From the IMG/VR virus record IMGVR_UViG_3300034374_011021, positions 1-64,000 of that record: DNA of 64,000 nucleotides; one strand, given 5' to 3'. The notes beneath the pieces were generated by a model that was given only the letters and a program-made list of their open reading frames with translations, was not told the DNA's origin and ran no database searches. Source of the DNA: a virus. The translations under genes and the position numbers were made by a program. Shown here one piece after another: positions 6,969 through 32,370 of this stretch (the stretch's first letter is position 1; each line of letters begins with the position of its first letter).

Positions 6969-7393
6969 TTATAATTTTGAATATAATCAGAACAAATCCC
7001 TGCACATTGATTTACATCATCTAAATAAAGTTCAGGCATAACTGCTATACTATTTTTAATAGGTTGTTTGCCTGGGTAGGCCCAAATGTATTTTTGTGAA
7101 GTTAAAGCAACTGTATCATTTTCATGCCAAAAATAATTAATACCGGAATCAAATCTAAATTGATTCAATGCTTCTACATTTTTACAATGAACCCATAGAT
7201 GATTATTACTTAAAAATATTTTATTAGTTTTGTATTGAGGTTTATCATGTCCTAAATAAAATTCACCATTAACATACCAAACGTCAACTTCAACATCATA
7301 CCCTTCAGATAATGCTTTTATAATGTAGTCTGGATGGTTTTCCTTTTCAGGGTTAGGACCATTGGTATTTCCTCTATGGCTAATTAGTATCAT
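6965..7393 (-). CDS. GDPD-like phosphodiesterase superfamily protein
   Basis: MILISHRGN, then ENHPDYIIKAL, DVEVDVWY and LGHDKP follow the HRG...E.......E.D......HD pattern of glycerophosphodiester phosphodiesterases. At 142 residues it is about half the length of the usual enzyme, so it may be a minimal catalytic version. It overlaps genes on both sides by four bases. A role in trimming or moving a phosphodiester-linked sugar is inference. Confidence 0.65.
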   Translation of the reverse strand: MILISHRGNTNGPNPEKENHPDYIIKALSEGYDVEVDVWYVNGEFYLGHDKPQYKTNKIFLSNNHLWVHCKNVEALNQFRFDSGINYFWHENDTVALTSQKYIWAYPGKQPIKNSIAVMPELYLDDVNQCAGICSDYIQNYK

Positions 7394-8748
7394 TTGTAAT
7401 TTTCTAGATAATATTTTAAATCTTCAGGTGTTCCTAACCCCCACATTTTATCTATATTAAATGTTCTAATTTGTTTATTGTCTTGAATAGCTTCATTAAA
7501 TACAGGACAAACATAAAACTCATTATTTACTCTAATATTTTTATCAATCATCTGTTCAGCATATTTTACAAAGTCAGAACCATGTTTCCAATAATAATAA
7601 CCAACAGTAGCAATATTTGATATAGGATTTTTCTCAGCTACTTCAGTTACTAATCCTAATTCATTTACTTTAGCAAATGACCATTTAGGATGAGTGGCTT
7701 CAAATGTAACAATACCTCCATCAGTATTTGTTTCATTCATTTTATACATAAACTCATTTGAGTCCCATTCAACAAACTGGTCTGAATTGGCAAAGAATAA
7801 AGGAGCATCATTATTAATATATTCTTTAGCTAGTAATGCTGTACAAGCAGCCCCTTCAGTTAAACCATCAACCTCTACTATTTTACAACCTGGAGTAATT
7901 AGATTAAGTAGAGTATCTAGGTTGTATTTTTCTCTATGTTTCTTTTGAACAATATAAACGTAATTAGCTTTAATATTAAGGTTTTCAACTACCACTTGAA
8001 TCATAGGTTTATTCCTAACATCAATAAGCGGTTTAGGAAATGTATAACCAGCCTGTTCAAATCTAGAACCAGCACCAGCCATTGGTATAAGTATATTTAA
8101 TTTTTCATCTCTCCAAGCGGGTGATTTCATAATATATCCTTCTTTAATTGATTTAATTTTTTGAGCTATATTAATATAATTAACTTCTTTAGGGGATCCA
8201 ACTCTAAGTATATGAGCTTTACTTCTAGAAGCAGCTAACAATCCGTAAGGTGAATCTTCAATAATTAATGCTTCTTCAGGCAGACAACTCATTTTTGAGA
8301 TAGCCTTCCAATACATTTCTGGATGGGGTTTACTGTTTTGAACATCTTCATTTGATAATATCAAATCAAAAAACTCAATAATACCTAATTTAGATAATAC
8401 AGTTAATACTGTTTTACGAATACTATTAGAACAAACAGCTAATTTATATCCATCTGATGATAAATTTTGGATAGTTGAATATAAAGTATCATCTTTTTTT
8501 AAACTAGCTAATGCCTCTAGAGTATATTTTTGTTTATTATTCCATACTTCTTCAAATTTCTCTTTAGGTAAACCTTTATTCTTATGAAGCATTTCTAGTT
8601 TTTGATTTGTTTTCAAACCATCATAAGTAGATAAATGCTCGTTCCAATCAATAGCGTATTTACCTAAAGCTTTATTTAATGCTTCAAAATGGATATTTTT
8701 AGCCTCTACTAAAACTCCATCCAAATCAAATACAATTAATTTAATCAT
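7390..8748 (-). CDS. HAD phosphatase fused to sugar nucleotidyltransferase
   Basis: Residues 1-205 are a beta-phosphoglucomutase-type HAD domain: FDLDGVLVEAK (nucleophile Asp), VCSNS, and IIEDSPYGLLAA. Residues about 210-452 are a GT-A-type nucleotidyltransferase: ILIPMAGAGSRF, then FPKPLIDV, and FFANSDQFVEW. The fusion could link sugar-phosphate handling with activation to an NDP-sugar. The substrate is not visible. Four-base overlaps on both sides place it in the operon. Independent evidence for the fusion is the unbroken 452-codon frame. Confidence 0.8.
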   Translation of the reverse strand: MIKLIVFDLDGVLVEAKNIHFEALNKALGKYAIDWNEHLSTYDGLKTNQKLEMLHKNKGLPKEKFEEVWNNKQKYTLEALASLKKDDTLYSTIQNLSSDGYKLAVCSNSIRKTVLTVLSKLGIIEFFDLILSNEDVQNSKPHPEMYWKAISKMSCLPEEALIIEDSPYGLLAASRSKAHILRVGSPKEVNYINIAQKIKSIKEGYIMKSPAWRDEKLNILIPMAGAGSRFEQAGYTFPKPLIDVRNKPMIQVVVENLNIKANYVYIVQKKHREKYNLDTLLNLITPGCKIVEVDGLTEGAACTALLAKEYINNDAPLFFANSDQFVEWDSNEFMYKMNETNTDGGIVTFEATHPKWSFAKVNELGLVTEVAEKNPISNIATVGYYYWKHGSDFVKYAEQMIDKNIRVNNEFYVCPVFNEAIQDNKQIRTFNIDKMWGLGTPEDLKYYLENYK

Positions 8749-9659
8749 ATGATTCCTTTTTCTTTTAACATTAAAATACCTTTCTTGACATATTCTTCTA
8801 AATTAGCTTCAAAATTAGCTCTTTGGTCAGGTATATCTTTTTTAACTATTAAACTCTTATAGTAACCTGATAATCCATCTTTTTCTTTCCAATTACCTGT
8901 CCAATAGTCTCCTACTGTAAGTCCTCTTAAAACATACTGTTGAAAGTCAAGATTAAATTGTTTAGCATAATTTATTAAAATCATACTATACCAATCCCAA
9001 GGGCCATAACCACTCCAATCATCATGTATAGGAACTAAATCTTCATAAAATGCTTTACTATATAAATCACACCAACCAGCAAATTTAGGTGTGTGAACTG
9101 GTTCTACTGTTAAATCATTTTTTTGTTTACTATTATATCTTATATCAAAAATATTAACTTCATCACATTTTTCATAAGGTATATTTAAATAATCTTTATC
9201 AGTAGTTGGATCCCAACTATTATCAGTTAATTTTCTATGTTGGGGACTTAATACAAAATATTTATTTTTTATTTGTTTAGCTGATTCTATTAAATAATAA
9301 AGAGTATATTCACTAAAATAAACATCAGGACAAATACTCATATAATAATCTACTTCCTCTGATATTAGGTTTCTTTGTTGGTCTAAATGGCCATAAAGAA
9401 TATCTTCTTCATTGATTTTTGAATTGACTGAGTAGTCTTCTAATAGATAGAGAAGAGTATTGAATTTATCTATAAAATAATTTTTAGGTAATTTACTATT
9501 ATTCCAATCTACTAGATAATTAGATAAATTTAATTCAGGATTTAAAGTAATATTAACATCTTTTGGTATATAAGGAAATGATTTTTTTAATTGGGTAAAA
9601 GTTAATAAAGCATAATCTATATCCCAGGGCATTATATGACAAGATATTTTAATATTCAT
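8745..9659 (-). CDS. Glycosyltransferase-like protein, family uncertain
   Basis: This 304-residue protein begins MNIKISCHIMPWDIDYALLT and contains DILYGHLDQQRN and GYGPWDWYSMILI. The arrangement resembles a GT-A fold with a variant metal-binding site, as in putative viral glycosyltransferases, but I cannot assign a family. It overlaps the epimerase gene by 11 bases. Position in the operon supports a sugar-related role. Confidence 0.5.
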   Translation of the reverse strand: MNIKISCHIMPWDIDYALLTFTQLKKSFPYIPKDVNITLNPELNLSNYLVDWNNSKLPKNYFIDKFNTLLYLLEDYSVNSKINEEDILYGHLDQQRNLISEEVDYYMSICPDVYFSEYTLYYLIESAKQIKNKYFVLSPQHRKLTDNSWDPTTDKDYLNIPYEKCDEVNIFDIRYNSKQKNDLTVEPVHTPKFAGWCDLYSKAFYEDLVPIHDDWSGYGPWDWYSMILINYAKQFNLDFQQYVLRGLTVGDYWTGNWKEKDGLSGYYKSLIVKKDIPDQRANFEANLEEYVKKGILMLKEKGII

Positions 9660-10416
9660 TCTTTAAAATATTATATACATTTTTTATACCTTGTTCTAAA
9701 CCAATAAATTTTAAATTTAAATTAGTAAATTTTCCATTAAAGGGAGGAGCCATATTCCAATTTTTAAAATTTATATTGACCTTATAATCAGATAAATTAT
9801 TTATAATTTGAGCTATATCATATAATGTAGGAGAATAATCATAACAACAATCTATTACTTTAGGACCATCATTGTTAATATAATATCTAATTAAAGTAAC
9901 TAAGTCTTCCATATAAAAGAAATCCATAAACTTATTTTGAAAGATTTCTATATCTTGTTTATTTATGTATTTTTGAATGTTAGTTTTAATAAATTTATAA
10001 TCTAACTCATTTTCATCAAATACATTTAAAATTCTAATATTATAAAATTTATCTTTATCTTGAATTGAGTTATGAATTATTTTTTTACTCCATCCATAAA
10101 AACTTTCTTGTGATTCTGCTCCTGAACCGAAATGGATTAATTTATTAAAGTGATTTTCACATTCTAATAAATTGTAATACATTTTTAAATTGTCATCTAA
10201 TACAGAAGGAGTATCCTCATCTAATCTACCTCCCCCTACTATAGCACAATGTATTACAATATCAAAATATTTGTCTTGAAAAAAACTTTTAACTTGTTTT
10301 AAATTAGTTAAATCTGCTTCTTTTCGGGTTAAAAGAGATATATTATACTCAGTTTTAAAATAATTATAAAAAACTTTTCCAATATACCCCCCCGCCCCTG
10401 TAATTAAAATATTCAT
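9649..10416 (-). CDS. NAD(P)-dependent sugar epimerase/dehydratase
   Basis: The N-terminal glycine motif MNILITGAGGYIGKVF binds NAD(P). YGWSKK (about residue 108) is the catalytic Tyr-x-x-x-Lys of short-chain dehydrogenases of the extended type. With 255 residues it is shorter than the 310-340 usual for nucleotide-sugar epimerases. It probably reduces or epimerises a keto sugar made by the neighbouring enzymes, as GDP-fucose synthase does. Its ATG overlaps the PanB stop by one base. Confidence 0.75.
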   Translation of the reverse strand: MNILITGAGGYIGKVFYNYFKTEYNISLLTRKEADLTNLKQVKSFFQDKYFDIVIHCAIVGGGRLDEDTPSVLDDNLKMYYNLLECENHFNKLIHFGSGAESQESFYGWSKKIIHNSIQDKDKFYNIRILNVFDENELDYKFIKTNIQKYINKQDIEIFQNKFMDFFYMEDLVTLIRYYINNDGPKVIDCCYDYSPTLYDIAQIINNLSDYKVNINFKNWNMAPPFNGKFTNLNLKFIGLEQGIKNVYNILKNEY

Positions 10417-11351
10417 TAACGTTTTACTACTGTAGGATTATTAGTAATTGGAGTCACACTATGGTTATTATTGTTATAATAATCTTTATCTAACTCATAT
10501 TTCCATTTTTCATCTCCTAGTAATTTTTCAAGTTCTTCTTCTTTAATTTCATAGAAATTTTCTTGTGATGGGAATTGACCATTACGAACCTCATTAGCAT
10601 AATCTGTTAATGCTTGAGTCATAATTTGACCCGCTTCACAATAACGTTTAACAAATTTTGATTTGAATTCCCAAAATAGTCCCATTAGATCATGAAAAAT
10701 AACTAACTGACCATCTACTTCATCACCAGCGCCAATTCCATAAACGGGGATATCTAAAGCACGGGCAATCATTCCTGCTGGTTCTTTAGGCATTGCCTCA
10801 AGTAATAAGGCTGAACAACCTGCTTCTTGAAGAGCTAAAGCTTGTTTTAAAACAATTTCAGCTTGGGCTGCTGTTTTGCCTTGAACTTTATAACCACCTA
10901 ATTTAGCGCGAGTATGAGGTGTAAGACCTAAATGACTCATAACCATAATACCTGAGCTAGCAATGGCTTTAACTCGGTCAACCATAGCGCCTTCTACTTT
11001 AACCATATCACACCCAGCAACAATAAAACGACCTGCATTTTCAATTGCTACTTGATCTGATGGTTGGTAGGACATATAGGGCATATCACCAATTAAGAGA
11101 GCATTTTCATTACCTCTACTTACTGCTTCACACGAACGAATCATATCATCCATAGTTACAGGAATAGTTGTTTTGTGACCTAATGTAGTCATGCCTAATG
11201 AATCACCTACTAAAATACAATCAACCCCAGCGGCGTCTGCCATACGTGCTTGAGGGTAATCATACGCAGTGACTAATACAGTTTTGTTTCCTTTACTCTT
11301 ATTTTGATTAAGGGTAAGAATTGTTTTTTTAGTTTTACTATCTGCTGCCAT
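10416..11351 (-). CDS. panB: 3-methyl-2-oxobutanoate hydroxymethyltransferase (PanB)
   Basis: PanB moves a one-carbon unit from methylene-tetrahydrofolate to alpha-ketoisovalerate, giving ketopantoate for CoA synthesis. All landmark motifs are present in order: VTAYDYPQARMA, GDSLGM, GDMPYMSY, KVEG, SHLGLTP, LLEAMP and YGIGAGDEVDGQ. The catalytic Glu (LLEAMPKE) and metal-binding Asp residues are kept. At 311 residues it has a roughly 45-residue polar tail beyond the usual end. It lies 4 bases after a ThDP enzyme in a sugar operon, not beside panC or panD, so another acceptor is possible. Confidence 0.9.
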   Translation of the reverse strand: MAADSKTKKTILTLNQNKSKGNKTVLVTAYDYPQARMADAAGVDCILVGDSLGMTTLGHKTTIPVTMDDMIRSCEAVSRGNENALLIGDMPYMSYQPSDQVAIENAGRFIVAGCDMVKVEGAMVDRVKAIASSGIMVMSHLGLTPHTRAKLGGYKVQGKTAAQAEIVLKQALALQEAGCSALLLEAMPKEPAGMIARALDIPVYGIGAGDEVDGQLVIFHDLMGLFWEFKSKFVKRYCEAGQIMTQALTDYANEVRNGQFPSQENFYEIKEEELEKLLGDEKWKYELDKDYYNNNNHSVTPITNNPTVVKR

Positions 11352-11355
11352 AATT

Positions 11356-13134
11356 TTATTTTAATGTAACCCAACTTTTAATTTTTTCTTTTCTTGGAAT
11401 TTTATTTATAATCATATTTTTATTTAAAATATCTTCTTCTAGATAAGGAAACATATCTTCTAAAGGATTTCCAAATTCTAATTTTGGTAATAATTTTTGT
11501 TCTCTATCAATAATAACATTTACTAATATACTTCCTTCTTCTTGTAAAGCCAAATTTATTACTTCTTTAAAGTTATTTTTGTTAGCTTCTACTGCTTTAA
11601 TACCATATGCTTGAGCCACTTTAATAAAGTCAGGAACTGAATAATCTTTATTTTCAGTAGCTATATATCTGGAGTTGAAGACTAAATCTTGAAATTGTTT
11701 AATAATACCGTAACAATTATTATTCATTATAAAAATCTTAATAGGTAAATTATAATGTTTAACAGTTTGGAGTTCTTGAATATTCATTTGAAAACCTCCA
11801 TCTCCATCAATACAAATTACAGGTTTATCAGTCCCAATAGCTGCTCCTATCGCTGCTGGTAATCCATACCCCATTGATGAGTTTCCAAAATTAGAAAATA
11901 TTCTTTGTTTAAATTTTGTTTTTAAAGATTGCATAGCCCACACTAAATGACCTCCCTCATCAGGAATAATAACTGAGTCTTCAGGAAGATTATCATTTAG
12001 TTGTTCTAAAAATTCATAAGAAGTTAAAACATCTTCTTTTAAAGTTCTATTTTCTTTTATATTTTTATAATCTTGACATTTTTGGTTCCATTCTTTTTTA
12101 TCTTGAGGTTCACAAGAACCAAATAAATGATTAATAAAGATCTTAGCATCGCAAACTACTGGTAGGTTTATATTTAATCCTCTACCTTTTTTTATTTCAT
12201 TTTCATCTATATCAACCATAATTTTATATGATTCTCTTGAAAATGTTTTTAAATCACCTCCAGTTTGTCTTGTATCTAATCTAGAACCTATAGATAACAG
12301 TAAATCACAATTTTGGATGGCGAAGTTGCCTCCTCTACTTCCATAAACTCCTATGTCTCCTATAAATAAAGGATGATTATGAGGAATAGAATCAAAACCA
12401 CCCCAACTAACAACAAAAGGAATATTTAATTTATTTATCAACATTAATACTTCATCCATTGAATTAGATAATCTAACCCCATGACCTATTAATAAAAGTG
12501 GTCTTTTACTTTCTTTGATTTTTATATTAATATTCTTTATTTTATTTTCTAAATTTTCATCAATAATAGGACTATATGTATTAAATTTAATTAAAGAAGT
12601 ATCTTCTAATAGTCGATTTTGGATATCCATTGGGATATCTAATAGACTAGGACCAAACCTTCCAATAAAACAAGTTTCAATTGCTTGTTTTAAAGTTTGA
12701 TTAAAATCATTATTTGAAGTTAATTTTTTAATAAATTTAGTAAATGGTTTAAAAGATTCTACAACAGGCATTTCTTGAAAACCTAGTTGTCTTGGATTTG
12801 ATTCTATACAATCAATAGATTCATAAGTACTAACCTGACCTGTTATAAATAAGCAAGGAATTGATTCATACCAACATCCACAAATGCCATTCAATAAATT
12901 TTGAGCTCCTGGGCCGCTAGTACTTAGTACTACTCCTAATTTTCCTGATGTTCTGAAATATGTTTCAGCCGCCATAGCAGCTGATTGTTCATGTTGAAAA
13001 CAGTAATATTTAGTTTTTGGATGTTGTCCTATATAATCTACTATAGGAGCAATAGCACCTCCAGTAACTAGAAAAAAGGTATCTATATTATTATAAACTA
13101 AAGAGTCAACTAAATGTTCTAATGTTTTTTTCAC
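11356..13134 (-). CDS. ThDP-dependent acetolactate-synthase-like enzyme
   Basis: The 592-residue protein has the three-domain ThDP layout: PYR domain with catalytic Glu49 in QHEQSAAMAAE, a middle domain, and the PP domain with GDGGFQMNIQEL...IMNNNCYG (the GDG...NN ThDP-Mg motif). WYESIPCLFITGQV is typical of the acetolactate synthase group. In other bacteria such enzymes in sugar clusters (for example YerE) add a two-carbon unit to a keto sugar. Here it sits between PanB and a 3-dehydrase-like PLP enzyme, which makes that role attractive; straight acetolactate synthesis is the alternative. Confidence 0.85.
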   Translation of the reverse strand: MKKTLEHLVDSLVYNNIDTFFLVTGGAIAPIVDYIGQHPKTKYYCFQHEQSAAMAAETYFRTSGKLGVVLSTSGPGAQNLLNGICGCWYESIPCLFITGQVSTYESIDCIESNPRQLGFQEMPVVESFKPFTKFIKKLTSNNDFNQTLKQAIETCFIGRFGPSLLDIPMDIQNRLLEDTSLIKFNTYSPIIDENLENKIKNINIKIKESKRPLLLIGHGVRLSNSMDEVLMLINKLNIPFVVSWGGFDSIPHNHPLFIGDIGVYGSRGGNFAIQNCDLLLSIGSRLDTRQTGGDLKTFSRESYKIMVDIDENEIKKGRGLNINLPVVCDAKIFINHLFGSCEPQDKKEWNQKCQDYKNIKENRTLKEDVLTSYEFLEQLNDNLPEDSVIIPDEGGHLVWAMQSLKTKFKQRIFSNFGNSSMGYGLPAAIGAAIGTDKPVICIDGDGGFQMNIQELQTVKHYNLPIKIFIMNNNCYGIIKQFQDLVFNSRYIATENKDYSVPDFIKVAQAYGIKAVEANKNNFKEVINLALQEEGSILVNVIIDREQKLLPKLEFGNPLEDMFPYLEEDILNKNMIINKIPRKEKIKSWVTLK

Positions 13135-13137
13135 TAA

Positions 13138-14280
13138 TTATTTATTAAAAAATTCTTTGATTTTATCACAAACATAATCTACATCTTCAATAGTCATACC
13201 ATGATGTGCTCCTAATAAGAAACCATTTTTCATAATAAGATCTGAATTAGTGAATGGTTGGAGATATTCTCTGTAAACAGGGTGACGAGTTACGTTACCA
13301 GCAAATGTCACACGAGTTTGGATATTATTGTCTTCCAAGAAATTCAATAGTTCAAAACGTTTTTCAGTTTGTAAAGGAATTGCTAACCAATTTGGTTTAA
13401 TTGAATCATCAGGTAATACAATATCACCTACACCTTGAAGATTTTTAATATAACGCTCAATATTTGCTCTACGAATTTGTTCAAATTCTTTAAAACGATC
13501 CAATTGAACCAATCCAAAAGCAGCATTCATTTCAGATGATTTAAAGTTATAACCTAAAACACTATATAAGAATTTATGGTCATAAGCAATACCATCTACA
13601 TCATGGTTAAAACGATCAGACATAATTTCTGAGTCATTACCCATTCGTCCCCAATCTCGGAATTGTAAACAAACATTTACTAATTTCTTATCATTAAACA
13701 TTACCATACCACCTGAACCACCTGCTGTAATAACATGTGATGCATAAAAACTAGTAGTGGCGATATCTGATTCTGGAGTATGAGTGACTGTGTCTGCTGA
13801 GTCTTCAATCAAAATAATATCTTCGCGACCCATTGCTATTAAACCTTCTTTGATTTCTTTCCAATTTGGTTTATTACCAATCAAATTAGGCAACATGAGG
13901 ACTTTAACTTCATCATCAATAGCAGCTAACACTTCACCTACTTGGGCTACATAATCATTTACTCCAACATCAACAAATACTGGTTTGAGTCCTAATTGAA
14001 TAATAGGAGCTAATGTAGTTGAAAAGGTACATGCTGGTGTAACAATTTTAGTACCTTTAGGCAGTTGTAAACTAGCTAAAGCAAGTAAACAAGCTGATGA
14101 ACCTGAATTTACAAATACACCATACTTTTTACCAAAGTGTTTAGCTATTTTTTCTTCAAATTCAACAGATTTAGGTCCTTGTCCACCTAACCAACCTGAT
14201 CGGAGTGATTCTTCTACTGCTTTGATTTCTTCTTCCCCATAAGACTCAAACTTATAAGGGGCATACCATATTTTTTTCAT
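13138..14280 (-). CDS. DegT-family sugar 3-dehydrase-like PLP enzyme
   Basis: The fold is that of DegT/DnrJ aminotransferases (VNSGSSACLLAL, TPACTFSTTLAPI, IEDSADT with Asp160). In the segment TSFYASHVITAGGSGG, His182 stands where aminotransferases have the PLP-binding Lys. The same Lys-to-His change defines ColD and RfbH, which remove the 3-hydroxyl from 4-keto sugars. RDWGR and LGYNFKSSEMNAA also fit RfbH. The four iron-sulphur cysteines of RfbH are missing, so a ColD-like reaction is more likely. The gene overlaps its upstream neighbour by four bases. Confidence 0.8.
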   Translation of the reverse strand: MKKIWYAPYKFESYGEEEIKAVEESLRSGWLGGQGPKSVEFEEKIAKHFGKKYGVFVNSGSSACLLALASLQLPKGTKIVTPACTFSTTLAPIIQLGLKPVFVDVGVNDYVAQVGEVLAAIDDEVKVLMLPNLIGNKPNWKEIKEGLIAMGREDIILIEDSADTVTHTPESDIATTSFYASHVITAGGSGGMVMFNDKKLVNVCLQFRDWGRMGNDSEIMSDRFNHDVDGIAYDHKFLYSVLGYNFKSSEMNAAFGLVQLDRFKEFEQIRRANIERYIKNLQGVGDIVLPDDSIKPNWLAIPLQTEKRFELLNFLEDNNIQTRVTFAGNVTRHPVYREYLQPFTNSDLIMKNGFLLGAHHGMTIEDVDYVCDKIKEFFNK

Positions 14281-15089
14281 ATAAGATTATTGTGTTTAAA
14301 AATTTTAGTTATTGTATTAATTATGTTTTGTTCGTAATGTACATAATTTAAAGCTAATTGCCAATTTTTATTAATAGCTTCTTTTTTAGATTCATAAAAA
14401 TCTTCAGTTAAATTATTTGCTACATTAATTAAGTCATCAATGTTATTAATATTTATAATACCGTCTGTATCAAAATAATCCCATAGGTTTGAACAACCCC
14501 AATATAAAGGAATAGTTTTAAGTAAAAAACAATCTAATATTTTCTCAGTAAAATAACCTCTATGAGAAGTATTTTCAATTACTACTCCATACTGTGAATC
14601 ACTGAATATAAATTCTTTACCTAAACGAGCATCATCAATGTTGTTTCTATCTCCATAAGTTTCATAGAATTTAGTAGGTATTTTAAATTCATTTTCTCTA
14701 GCTGTTACTTCATGTCTTAAAGAATGACCGTATGTTTTAAGTAGTTTACCTTGTAAATGAGCTAATTTAAATTCTTTTTTATGTTCTTTTTCATATTGGT
14801 CTGGTTTTAGCCAGGTGTGTCCAAATGGTTGAAAAATAGCATTATCACATTGGTTTAATACTTTATCATCCCAAGTTAATATAACTGAAAATATATCTTT
14901 ATTTTTTATAACCCAATCATGTAAACCGAAGTATTCATTTGGTTCTTGAAAAGAAATAATATTAACAGAAGATAATTCCTCTTGACTTTCAGGAATGGCA
15001 TCTACAAATAAAGAAAAATCAATATGGGATAAATGTTGTAATTTATCTTCAAAAACTTTTTTATCAAAATGATTTACTTTTATTTTCAT
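14277..15089 (-). CDS. GT10 fucosyltransferase-like glycosyltransferase
   Basis: The C-terminal half has VVIENTSHRGYFTEKILDCF, then PLYWGC and DYFDTDGII, the donor-binding signature of alpha-1,3-fucosyltransferases (GT10) and relatives. The N-terminal half is divergent. It probably transfers a fucose-like or deoxy sugar from a nucleotide donor, consistent with the dehydrase and epimerase genes beside it. Four-base overlaps link it to both neighbours. Confidence 0.7.
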   Translation of the reverse strand: MKIKVNHFDKKVFEDKLQHLSHIDFSLFVDAIPESQEELSSVNIISFQEPNEYFGLHDWVIKNKDIFSVILTWDDKVLNQCDNAIFQPFGHTWLKPDQYEKEHKKEFKLAHLQGKLLKTYGHSLRHEVTARENEFKIPTKFYETYGDRNNIDDARLGKEFIFSDSQYGVVIENTSHRGYFTEKILDCFLLKTIPLYWGCSNLWDYFDTDGIININNIDDLINVANNLTEDFYESKKEAINKNWQLALNYVHYEQNIINTITKIFKHNNLI

Positions 15090-22778: not shown

Positions 22779-24392
22779 TTACATCATTCCCATCATGTCT
22801 CCAAACCCAGCATCATCTTTTTTATCCTCAGGTTTGTCAACAACAACTGCTTCTGTCAATAAGATAGTACCAGCTACTGAAGCTGCGTTCTCAAGAGCTG
22901 TACGAGTTACTTTAGCTGGATCAATTACTCCAATTTCTCTCATATCACAGAAATCTTCATCATTCAAATTAAATCCATACCAATAATCACCTCCTGTTGC
23001 TCCTGATAAGGCATTATATATATCTTCTTGTTCATAACCAGCATTGGCTAAAATTTTCTTAAATGGTTCAGCACAGGCATTATAAACAATTCGACCACCA
23101 ATAGTATTAAAATCACTAATACCATTTCGAGAGTGTAGCAAAGCCATTCCACCACCAGGTACAATACCTTCTTCAAGAGCGGCTTTAGTAGCTTGTAAAG
23201 CATCATCTACTCGGTCTTTCTTTTCTTTCATTTCAGCTTCTGTAAATCCACCTACATGAACAACAGCAACACCACCAATAAACTTAGCTAAACGTTCTTG
23301 TAATTTTTCTTTTTCATATGGAGAAACAGATTTATCAATTTGTGTTTGAAGTTCTTCAATACGTTCAGCAATTTTATCAGCATCACCTTTACCATCTACA
23401 ATAGTAGTTTCATCTTTACCTACAGTAACTACTCGAGCTTGACCAAACCAATCCCAACTAAATTTATCTAATTTCATACCTTTTTCAGTACTGAATACTT
23501 GGCCACCTGTCATGGTAGCAATGTCTTCAAGAATCAATTTACGACGGTCACCAAAGTCAGGGGCTTTAACTGCTACAACTTTTAAAATACCTCTTGCTTT
23601 GTTTACAATTAAAGTAGCTAATGCTTCACCATCAATATCTTCAGCAATCAATACTAAAGGTTTATTTTGGTTAGATACAGCTTCTAAAATAGGCAACAAC
23701 TCTTTTACTTGAGTAAAACGCTTATCGGCAATCAAAATCAAAGCATCATTTAAAGTAGTACTCATTGAGTTATTATCAGTCACAAAATAAGGTGATTTAT
23801 AACCTCTGTCAAACTGCATACCTTCTACTGTTTCAAGATATGTTTCACCATTTTTAGACTCTTCAATGAATACAACTCCCTCACGACCTACTTTTTGCAT
23901 TGCTGTAGCAATTAATTCTCCTACTTCAGAATCATTATTAGCTGAAATTGTTGCAATTTGTTTAAGTTGTTCCTCATCTGAAATATCTTCTTTAATTTCA
24001 TGACGTAGATGTTCAACTACTTCTTTTACTGCTTTATCAATACTACGTTTAATTTCAACAGCATTTTCTCCATGGTTAAGATACTTAAGACCTTGTTTAG
24101 CCATTTCACGAGCCAACAAAGTTGAAGTTGTAGTACCATCACCAGCATTATCAGCAGTCTTAATAGCTGCTTGTTTAACTAATTGTACACCCAATTCTTC
24201 AATTGGATCTTCTAAGGTAATTGATTTAGCTACTGTTACACCATCTTTAGTTGATTGTGGAATACCTCCGTTTGCAATAACTACATTTCGTCCATTAGGA
24301 CCAAGTGTTGATGTTACAGCATTAGCTAGTTTATCAATACCATTAATCATTTTTTCCCTTGCATCGGGACCAAATTCTATAATTTTACTCAT
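22779..24392 (-). CDS. groEL: Chaperonin GroEL
   Basis: A full-length 537-residue chaperonin. [34 protein letters not shown] (with the ATP-contacting Asp of GDGTT) and [23 protein letters not shown] are all present; the C-terminus ends GFGDMMGMM, a short version of the GGM tail. It would form the folding cage with the phage GroES encoded 1 base upstream. Phage chaperonins usually serve capsid or tail protein folding. Confidence 0.95.
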
Positions 24393-31510: not shown

Positions 31511-31681
31511 TTATTTTAATTTATTTAAAACTTTATCCCAAAACAAGTCTAGTTTGTCTTTTCTTGCTTTACAACCACAATCATCATAGCCCATTTTTTT
31601 AGCTATGAATAAAGCAATTCGATGGCCTTGTCCAAAGGTAATTATTTTAATTAACAATTCAACAAAACCACCTAGTTTCAT
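31511..31681 (-). CDS. Hypothetical 56-residue protein with CGC motif
   Basis: Frame from an ATG at 31681 to a TAA at 31511-31513. The product MKLGGFVELLIKIITFGQGHRIA...DDCGCKARKDKLD has a conserved-looking C-G-C-x-x-R-K. Such a motif occurs in small phage proteins of unknown role. One-base overlap with folE supports expression. Confidence 0.6.
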   Translation of the reverse strand: MKLGGFVELLIKIITFGQGHRIALFIAKKMGYDDCGCKARKDKLDLFWDKVLNKLK

Positions 31682-32370
31682 TAGATTTGATGACCTCCGT
31701 TATTGATTTTCAAGCTGTCAAAGAATTCCTTACGTGCTTGGTTTTCATTATTTAAGAACACACCTGATGCTTTAGTAGTTACCATTGAAGCTCCTTGATG
31801 TTTAACACCTCTACATGAAACACAATTGTGAGTAGCAACTATAGTAACAATAACACCTTTATTGTTTTCACAAATTTTATCTACAGCTTGATGAATAGCT
31901 GAAGTAAGTTGTTCTTGAATAGCTCCACGACGGCCAAAATGTTCCACAATACGATTCAATTTAGACAACCCAATTACTGAACCGTTTTCACCTACTACAT
32001 AACCAATATGAACTACTCCTCCAATTGTTTGGTGGTGATGTGAACACATTGAGGTAAGAGGAATGTTTCGTTCAATTACAATACCATCATAGCCATCACT
32101 TGGAAATGAGGTAATGTCTGTAGGAGCATCATAACGACCTTTCCACAAATCAAAAACATATGCTTTAGCTACACGACGAGGTGTATCTGAGCTATTGGGA
32201 TCATTTCTCCAATCACATCCTAAAGCATCTAAAAACTTACCATATGCTTCAGCTGCTTCATCTACCATTGACCATTTTTCTTTTTCAGTTAATGGAAAAC
32301 CAGGAGCTATACCATTAGCATAACCTGTTTTTACTACTTCTAAATCTAGTTTAAATGTCTTATTATTCAT
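31681..32370 (-). CDS. folE: GTP cyclohydrolase I (FolE)
   Basis: Makes dihydroneopterin triphosphate from GTP, the first step to preQ0. Zinc ligands are present in MCSHHHQTI and HNCVSCRGVKHQG, with IGLSKLNRIVEHFGRR in the core. 229 residues is normal. It starts a separate transcript (promoter 32381-32412), the next gene after hpt. With queC, queD, queE and dpdA nearby, the product is more likely meant for DNA modification than folate. Confidence 0.93.
   Translation of the reverse strand: MNNKTFKLDLEVVKTGYANGIAPGFPLTEKEKWSMVDEAAEAYGKFLDALGCDWRNDPNSSDTPRRVAKAYVFDLWKGRYDAPTDITSFPSDGYDGIVIERNIPLTSMCSHHHQTIGGVVHIGYVVGENGSVIGLSKLNRIVEHFGRRGAIQEQLTSAIHQAVDKICENNKGVIVTIVATHNCVSCRGVKHQGASMVTTKASGVFLNNENQARKEFFDSLKINNGGHQI

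Follow-up and report, generated by a model that had tools for sequence, protein, structure and literature searches.

A PanB homologue linked to a YerE-like ThDP enzyme in phage sugar loci, proposed to make the donor acid for branched 3-deoxy sugars

Introduction

Why would a tailed phage carry a gene of the ketopantoate hydroxymethyltransferase family (PanB) inside a sugar operon? We address this question for a stretch of 64,000 nucleotides (hereafter, the window) that makes up nearly the whole of the 65,555-base virus record IMGVR_UViG_3300034374_011021, and whose gene content (tail sheath, DNA polymerase, DnaB-like helicase and ribonucleotide reductase) identifies its source as a tailed phage. 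On the minus strand, the window encodes a DegT-fold protein, a thiamine diphosphate (ThDP) enzyme and PanB, in that order and with intergenic gaps of 3 and 4 bases, followed by a short-chain dehydrogenase/reductase (SDR) that overlaps PanB by 1 base; at the other end of the trio, the DegT gene overlaps the gene of a GT10-like protein by 4 bases (Table 1). An original prediction, made from the sequence of the window, placed the three genes side by side in one sugar operon, as this layout confirms, and proposed that they make a branched deoxy sugar. We consider it probable that the trio forms the core of a phage-borne, erwiniose-type branched 3-deoxy-sugar pathway in which PanB makes the donor acid. 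The linkage of PanB to the ThDP gene, the histidine at the catalytic position of the DegT protein, the distinct PanB clade, the undetected pantothenate and valine genes, and the presence of aldolases instead of PanB in some loci are all observed, as described below.

Results

PanB and a ThDP gene are linked across viral contigs

Viral loci were retrieved with the window PanB (68 loci) and with the window ThDP enzyme (19 loci). Linkage was counted at one locus per PanB contig, which gave 72 contigs (L007 and L016–L086), 71 of them with a usable gene call. The ThDP gene directly adjoins PanB on the same strand in all 71, in the order ThDP–PanB in 50 and PanB–ThDP in 21; in the remaining contig, L046, the linkage is present by a stop-to-stop count. 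By the same count, a same-strand ThDP gene lies within 1,500 bases of PanB in 86 of 86 rows (the window plus 85 loci, duplicates included). The PanB rows reduce to 55 at 99% identity, 47 at 95%, 35 at 90% and 21 at 85%. The original prediction had called for a search of this neighbourhood in other genomes, and the linkage recurs there, exceeds chance and extends well beyond a single window. A DegT gene is present in 54 of the 71 PanB loci, many of which stop at a contig edge, and an open reading frame (ORF) best matched by a 4,6-dehydratase query is present in 39, in some cases at low identity and with truncation at contig edges. SDR genes also recur beside PanB in the sister loci. A B12-binding radical SAM gene occurs in 13 of the 71 PanB loci (for example, L044:4456-5994), 12 of which have the PanB–ThDP order.

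The bacterial set comprised 80 contigs kept; 74 bacterial loci (L094–L167) were retrieved by peptide patterns of the window PanB. PanB proteins of the phage clade, described below, were found at 56–75% identity on six of the 80 contigs, and a ThDP gene adjoins them in L089, L090, L091 and L093. The L090 locus (L090:258-4633, a Prochlorococcus single-cell contig) encodes PanB and the ThDP enzyme, followed by split transketolase genes, and may be of host or phage origin. In L088, a Marinimicrobia single-cell contig, a PanB 74% identical to that of the window lies among glycan-type genes; no ThDP match was seen in the L088 assembly.

The phage PanB proteins keep the active site and form a distinct clade

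The original prediction described the window PanB as canonical, which holds for its active-site residues but not for its place in the family. The protein scores 279.9 bits against TIGR00222 (cut-off 207.55) and 329.1 bits against Pfam Pantoate_transf. D45, S46, D84, K112, E114, H136 and the glutamate of column 180, which we take to be metal-binding and catalytic residues, are invariant in all 82 phage rows, a count that includes overlapping loci. In the PanB tree, 16 phage and 5 bacterial rows form one group of 21, with a Shimodaira–Hasegawa-like approximate likelihood-ratio test (SH-aLRT) value of 97. Thirty columns, including 135, 142 and 182, which are close in sequence to catalytic residues, distinguish the phage clade from the remaining PanBs in the comparison. 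When searched against a phage collection, the window PanB matched 13 records, all below 60% identity. A separate recruitment of PanB was considered for L016–L019, which fall outside the main clade, and set aside; because the deeper branches of the tree are weak, we do not claim two origins.

The conversion of 2-oxoisovalerate to ketopantoate by PanB is established chemistry. Acting on pyruvate, the use of which we infer here, PanB would give 4-hydroxy-2-oxobutanoate.

The ThDP enzyme is closer to YerE-like ligases than to acetolactate synthases

The window ThDP enzyme carries all three TPP domains and scores below cut-off with all the acetolactate-synthase models among the 25 listed, the best being TIGR00118 (402 against 538). 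Its PDB matches are led by JanthE (8rph, 321.5 bits) and by 5ahk (300.3 bits), which we take to be Pseudomonas protegens YerE and whose entry name reads acetolactate synthase II. Both outscore the plant, bacterial and fungal acetohydroxyacid synthase (AHAS) chains among the matches listed, the best plant AHAS reaching 244.9 bits. JanthE is the best PDB match in all three ThDP queries that we ran, the other two being the enzymes of sister loci L055 (460.8 bits, against 248.3 for the best plant AHAS) and L060 (281.9 against 227.3 bits). The activating glutamate of the ThDP decarboxylase fold (E48) and its GDG motif (G444-D445-G446) are invariant in nine aligned ThDP relatives, the window enzyme included. 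According to the accessible part of the source, JanthE is a YerE-like ligase that takes 4-hydroxy-2-oxovalerate with benzaldehyde (PMC12188165). The window enzyme is closer to such YerE-like enzymes than to AHAS, and is predicted to accept a ketone. Matches in the phage collection were all below 60% identity (53 records for the window ThDP enzyme and 57 for that of L055).

DegT partners are almost all of the histidine type

The DegT protein had been predicted to carry a histidine in place of the catalytic lysine. Its nearest solved relative is RfbH (3bcx, E 6e-60); the H of SFYASHVIT in the window protein stands opposite the H of SFYPAHHIT in 3bcx, and chain 3bb8 has K there, so the substitution is real. 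The window protein lacks the RfbH-type cysteines after FRDWGR, presumably Fe–S cluster ligands in RfbH, which the RfbH-type sister rows have. Because it scores 260.2 bits against the PRK15407 RfbH model (cut-off 423), we file it as RfbH/ColD-like and not as RfbH.

This replacement is general among the partners. The DegT proteins of the window, L001–L086 and L088–L093 gave 50 distinct strings from 70 rows, of which 48 have histidine at the catalytic position and fall into three sequence types: 33 are RfbH-type and cysteine-rich (one bacterial), 5 are window-type and 10 are ColD-like (one bacterial). Lysine was found in the second DegT protein of L093, beside a PseB, and in the DegT protein of L088, whose locus has no ThDP gene. 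RfbH proteins above the cut-off of 423 are encoded in L005 (469.8), L055 (480.2) and L093 (644.5); the ColD-like proteins of L044 and L091 fall below it (204.7 and 222.1). The window DegT protein matched 78 records of the phage collection, all below 60% identity.

Genes resembling dTDP-glucose 4,6-dehydratase in L005, L055 and L016 score 294–308 against a cut-off of 365 for the thymidine diphosphate (dTDP) type and 56–79 against 278 for the cytidine diphosphate (CDP) type, and the nucleotide in the PanB loci may therefore be dTDP. Taken together, the histidine-type 3-dehydratases, RfbH, 4,6-dehydratase and YerE-like ThDP enzymes of the sister loci support the branched deoxy-sugar pathway first proposed for the window.

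Pantothenate and valine genes are not detected in the viral records

The family names suggest another role, in which the ThDP enzyme would be an acetolactate synthase, PanB would supply ketopantoate for host pantothenate and hence coenzyme A (CoA), and the sugar genes would be mere neighbours. A viral pantoate transferase is interpreted in this way, as a vitamin B5 helper, in the accessible part of an earlier report (PMC8940887). The original prediction had named panC and panD as the genes that would point to such a route. In 51 viral records, the window included, we found no panC, ilvD or ilvC match over cut-off (panD and panE were not searched); one sub-threshold ilvC match occurs in the record of L072. 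On this ground, the pantothenate route was rejected as our principal explanation. The bacterial genomes bear on the same question: five of the six with a PanB of the phage clade have a second PanB, which in two genomes is separated from panC by 74 or 258 bases; the clade copy is not linked to panC. The original claim that PanB does not feed CoA synthesis stands on these two results. Given also that the ThDP enzymes are nearer to JanthE than to AHAS and that 48 of the 50 DegT strings are of the histidine type, we regard a CoA or valine helper as very unlikely.

As references for panC-linked PanB, we used L168, L169, L170 and L171. One of these, Microcystis phage MaAM05 (L169, MW495066.1), was considered as an example of a phage with both panB and panC. 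Besides panB and panC, its stretch encodes pxpA, suf genes and a gluconeogenesis factor; because all or part of it may be bacterial sequence deposited as a phage, it was not used as a phage example. The loci L094–L167 were likewise tried as a housekeeping control. Neither panC nor ThDP was matched in the locus of any of their 82 PanB ORFs, so the set is biased and no fair control for panC linkage. These loci hold many PanB paralogues of other types without a panC match in the locus and with neighbours that vary, as judged by their opening sequences, and the PanB family may therefore have further roles.

Aldolase genes take the place of PanB in some ThDP loci

From the 308 relatives found in a scan with the ThDP alignment, the 80 best loci were kept. 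PanB is present in 53 and adjacent to the ThDP gene in 51 of the 52 that were gene-called. The 27 loci without PanB carry DJ-1/PfpI plus cupin-like genes (10), HpcH-like genes (7), DmpG-like genes (2, one with MhpF) or none of these (8; in L220, L226 and L263 the locus ends with the ThDP gene). None of the DJ-1/PfpI plus cupin-like, HpcH-like or DmpG-like genes was found in any PanB locus examined. Whole-record searches for PanB, run on 22 of the 28 loci that lacked an initial PanB call (all but L220, L226, L247, L254, L263 and L267), found one in L238 and none in the other 21, and HpcH/HpaI genes were detected in 0 of 48 PanB records against 3 of 3 positive records. The DJ-1/PfpI plus cupin-like loci are L257:4406-6001, L239, L251, L252, L254, L255, L259, L261, L262 and L268; in L257, the two genes are followed by an ORF whose opening sequence is HAD-like.

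In L256, the 4,6-dehydratase, 3-dehydratase, YerE-like enzyme and aldolase families are all present. It encodes a CDP-glucose 4,6-dehydratase (459 against a cut-off of 278), RfbH (670.5 against 423), an acetylating acetaldehyde dehydrogenase (358.4 against 282) and a 4-hydroxy-2-oxovalerate aldolase (382.7 against 286), and its glucose-1-phosphate cytidylyltransferase is just below cut-off (296.9 against 300). L249 has a distant relative of the 4-hydroxy-2-oxovalerate aldolase (100.6 against 286) that is HMGL-like over the Pfam cut-off, and L269 and L264 are weakly over the Pfam cut-off of 25 for HpcH_HpaI (35.9 and 35.7).

L269 is close to the window. The DegT protein is 84% identical, the GT10-like protein 77%, a 151-amino-acid protein 77%, the glycosyltransferases 70–79%, the SDR 67% and the 304-amino-acid protein 54%. 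By contrast, the ThDP enzyme is 36% identical, an HpcH-like gene is present and PanB was not found in the 23.5-kb record. Ligase and donor gene therefore differ together, and the sugar-backbone genes are constant. The donor label changes 11 times on the ThDP tree, against a mean of 21.5 in shuffles, none of 200 of which was as low (one label, that of L046, is wrong, and the shuffles ignore relatedness).

The presence of aldolases instead of PanB in sister loci suggests that PanB acts ahead of the ThDP enzyme and supplies it with a free 2-oxo acid as donor. We have revised the original prediction accordingly: its one-carbon transfer by PanB is kept, and the acceptor that it proposed, a keto-acid or acetyl side chain, gives way to a free donor acid. 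In the alternative order, the ThDP enzyme would first add a pyruvate-derived acetyl group to the keto sugar, as for yersiniose, and PanB would then hydroxymethylate the sugar-bound acetyl. This uses the same gene set, PanB follows the ThDP gene in 50 of the 71 loci, though it precedes it in 21, and YerE uses pyruvate, as stated in the accessible text of PMC12247030. However, the enzymes that stand in for PanB are aldolases of free 2-oxo acids, and PanB keeps the catalytic residues of a 2-oxo-acid enzyme in all 82 phage rows, and we judge the acetyl-first order unlikely.

A proposed route with PanB as donor maker

In the route that we favour, the histidine-type DegT enzyme would remove the C3 hydroxyl of a nucleoside diphosphate (NDP)-4-keto-6-deoxyhexose, as its family and conserved histidine suggest. 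PanB would move a hydroxymethyl group from methylene-tetrahydrofolate (methylene-THF) to a free 2-oxo acid, which may be pyruvate, 2-oxobutyrate or 2-oxoisovalerate; the product would be 4-hydroxy-2-oxobutanoate, its 3-methyl form or ketopantoate, respectively. By analogy with ErwE, the YerE-like ThDP enzyme would decarboxylate this product and add the hydroxyacyl unit to the keto carbon of the sugar, which would thereby become a tertiary alcohol whose branch carries the hydroxymethyl group. The SDR might then reduce the branch ketone, and a glycosyltransferase might transfer the sugar to a surface glycan. For ErwE, which is itself YerE-like, the accessible part of PMC12247030 describes a preference for hydroxy 2-oxo acids, 4-hydroxy-2-oxobutanoate among them, and the use of the cyclic ketone analogue dihydro-2H-pyran-3(4H)-one. 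The aldolase of L256 belongs to a family that makes the pentanoate homologue of 4-hydroxy-2-oxobutanoate. Given the use of hydroxy-2-oxo acids by ErwE and JanthE, the chemistry of PanB and the L256 aldolase, a donor maker is the most likely role for PanB.

More tentatively, and at slightly less than an even chance, the loci may represent an exchangeable phage module, in which a YerE-like ligase is paired with the enzyme that makes its donor acid (PanB, 4-hydroxy-2-oxovalerate aldolase or an HpcH/HpaI-like aldolase) and the pair works on a constant 3-deoxy-sugar backbone. PanB would then put a folate carbon into the branch, which could be a quaternary branch of the hydroxypivaloyl type. This would be new sugar chemistry and would let phages diversify surface glycans.

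Setting of the trio in the window

The genes around the trio are listed in Table 1. The label GT10-like, taken from the original prediction, is a weak one, with a Pfam score below cut-off. Homologues of the HAD–nucleotidylyltransferase fusion, 79–81% identical, are found close to the sugar genes in L003 and L015. GroEL and GTP cyclohydrolase genes are also present on the window (22779-24392 and 31681-32370), in which we found neither a tRNA nor any Rfam family above threshold. The window DNA polymerase matched 2,580 phage records, all below 60% identity, the first listed being Microcystis phage Mel-JY01 (33.8%).

Table 1. Genes of the trio and its surroundings in the window
Feature	Position	Strand	Remarks
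HAD phosphatase fused to sugar-1-phosphate nucleotidylyltransferase-like domain	7390..8748	-	PF13419 and PF00483 over cut-off
304-amino-acid protein	8745..9659	-	No Pfam or NCBIfam match; homologues in several sister loci, e.g. L006, L013, L269
SDR, NAD-dependent epimerase/dehydratase family	9649..10416	-	255 amino acids; PF01370 62.4 bits; candidate branch-ketone reductase or epimerase
PanB, ketopantoate hydroxymethyltransferase family	10416..11351	-	311 amino acids; TIGR00222 over cut-off; proposed maker of hydroxymethylated donor 2-oxo acid
ThDP enzyme, YerE-like/AHAS-like ligase	11356..13134	-	592 amino acids; GTG start; proposed to attach the acyl branch to the keto sugar
DegT-fold His-type sugar 3-dehydratase (predicted)	13138..14280	-	380 amino acids; aligns with RfbH 3bcx; without RfbH Fe–S cysteines
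GT10-like putative glycosyltransferase	14277..15089	-	PF00852 20.9 bits, below Pfam cut-off 23.9

Discussion

Our data point to PanB as the maker of a donor acid for a branched 3-deoxy sugar, and several observations weigh against this reading. No 4,6-dehydratase was found in the window record (PF16363 0 of 1; no BLAST match at E 0.01), so the host, or sequence missing from the record, must supply the 4-keto sugar; many sister loci do encode a 4,6-dehydratase. Not every locus shows the pairing: a related ThDP gene occurs in L014 with no PanB, and a PanB of the phage clade is encoded on each of the bacterial contigs L088 and L092 in a locus with no ThDP gene. In L200, an SDR intervenes between the ThDP gene and PanB. 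The DJ-1/PfpI plus cupin-like genes, in 10 of the 80 ThDP loci, include no obvious maker of a 2-oxo acid; this group does not fit, and the donor-slot reading is therefore not universal. A further 8 of the 80 loci have neither PanB, an aldolase nor the DJ-1/PfpI plus cupin-like genes. Absences, those of panC, ilvC and ilvD included, are weak evidence, because the records are often fragments. Finally, the window ThDP enzyme keeps the arginine of RLDTRQTG, as do AHAS and 5ahk, where JanthE and the L055 enzyme have proline; this arginine, we presume, may bind a 2-oxo acid acceptor.

The retained AHAS-type arginine would also fit a product other than a C-branched sugar, namely a hydroxylated acyl group or acyloin made by PanB and the ThDP enzyme and attached to a glycan or lipid by another enzyme. 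In line with such a product, DegT is undetected in 17 of the 71 loci and a 4,6-dehydratase-matched ORF in 32, some of them cut by contig ends. Yet where DegT proteins occur they are overwhelmingly of the histidine type, and a ketone-accepting ligase is the best PDB match of every ThDP enzyme queried; an attached acyl or acyloin product seems improbable to us.

If PanB does make the donor acid, it has a second job, the supply of branched-sugar building blocks from folate one-carbon units, and the interpretation of viral pantoate transferase as a vitamin B5 helper, as given in the accessible part of PMC8940887, would be wrong for this clade. Phages might also use the pathway to vary surface glycans. 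The loci would provide a naturally interchangeable set of donor makers, each paired with a ketone-accepting ThDP ligase, and such ligases are wanted for tertiary-alcohol synthesis, as the accessible text of PMC12247030 notes. Among the literature matches listed, judged by title and abstract and with subscription literature mostly out of reach, none places PanB in a pathway to branched sugars. In a plasmid search, identities were at most 33.3% among the matches listed (12 of 1,664 records). Pathways of this type are known; what is new, within the reach of these searches, is the proposed donor-making enzyme, its phage setting and its exchange for aldolases.

Comparison with the closest known systems places the phage loci as follows. 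They share with pantothenate PanB the family, the active site and the expected methylene-THF chemistry, but the phage clade is distinct at about 30 columns, has a ThDP neighbour and is without panC in the viral records tested. With RfbH and ColD, the DegT proteins share the fold and the histidine that replaces the pyridoxal phosphate (PLP) lysine; the window enzyme differs in lacking the RfbH cysteines and in falling under the RfbH cut-off, whereas sister loci use RfbH proteins above it. Yersiniose A clusters resemble the phage loci in combining a 3-dehydratase, a ThDP ligase and an SDR, with a ketone as acceptor, but YerE uses pyruvate and no PanB partner is described for it in the accessible part of PMC12247030; in addition, the nucleotide in the phage loci may be dTDP. 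The phage loci also resemble the ErwE-type pathways of erwiniose and caryophyllose, in which, according to the same part of that source, a YerE-like ThDP enzyme adds a hydroxy-2-oxo-acid unit to a 3,6-dideoxy-4-keto sugar (PMC12247030); the phage loci differ in having a folate-dependent PanB as the proposed maker of the donor.

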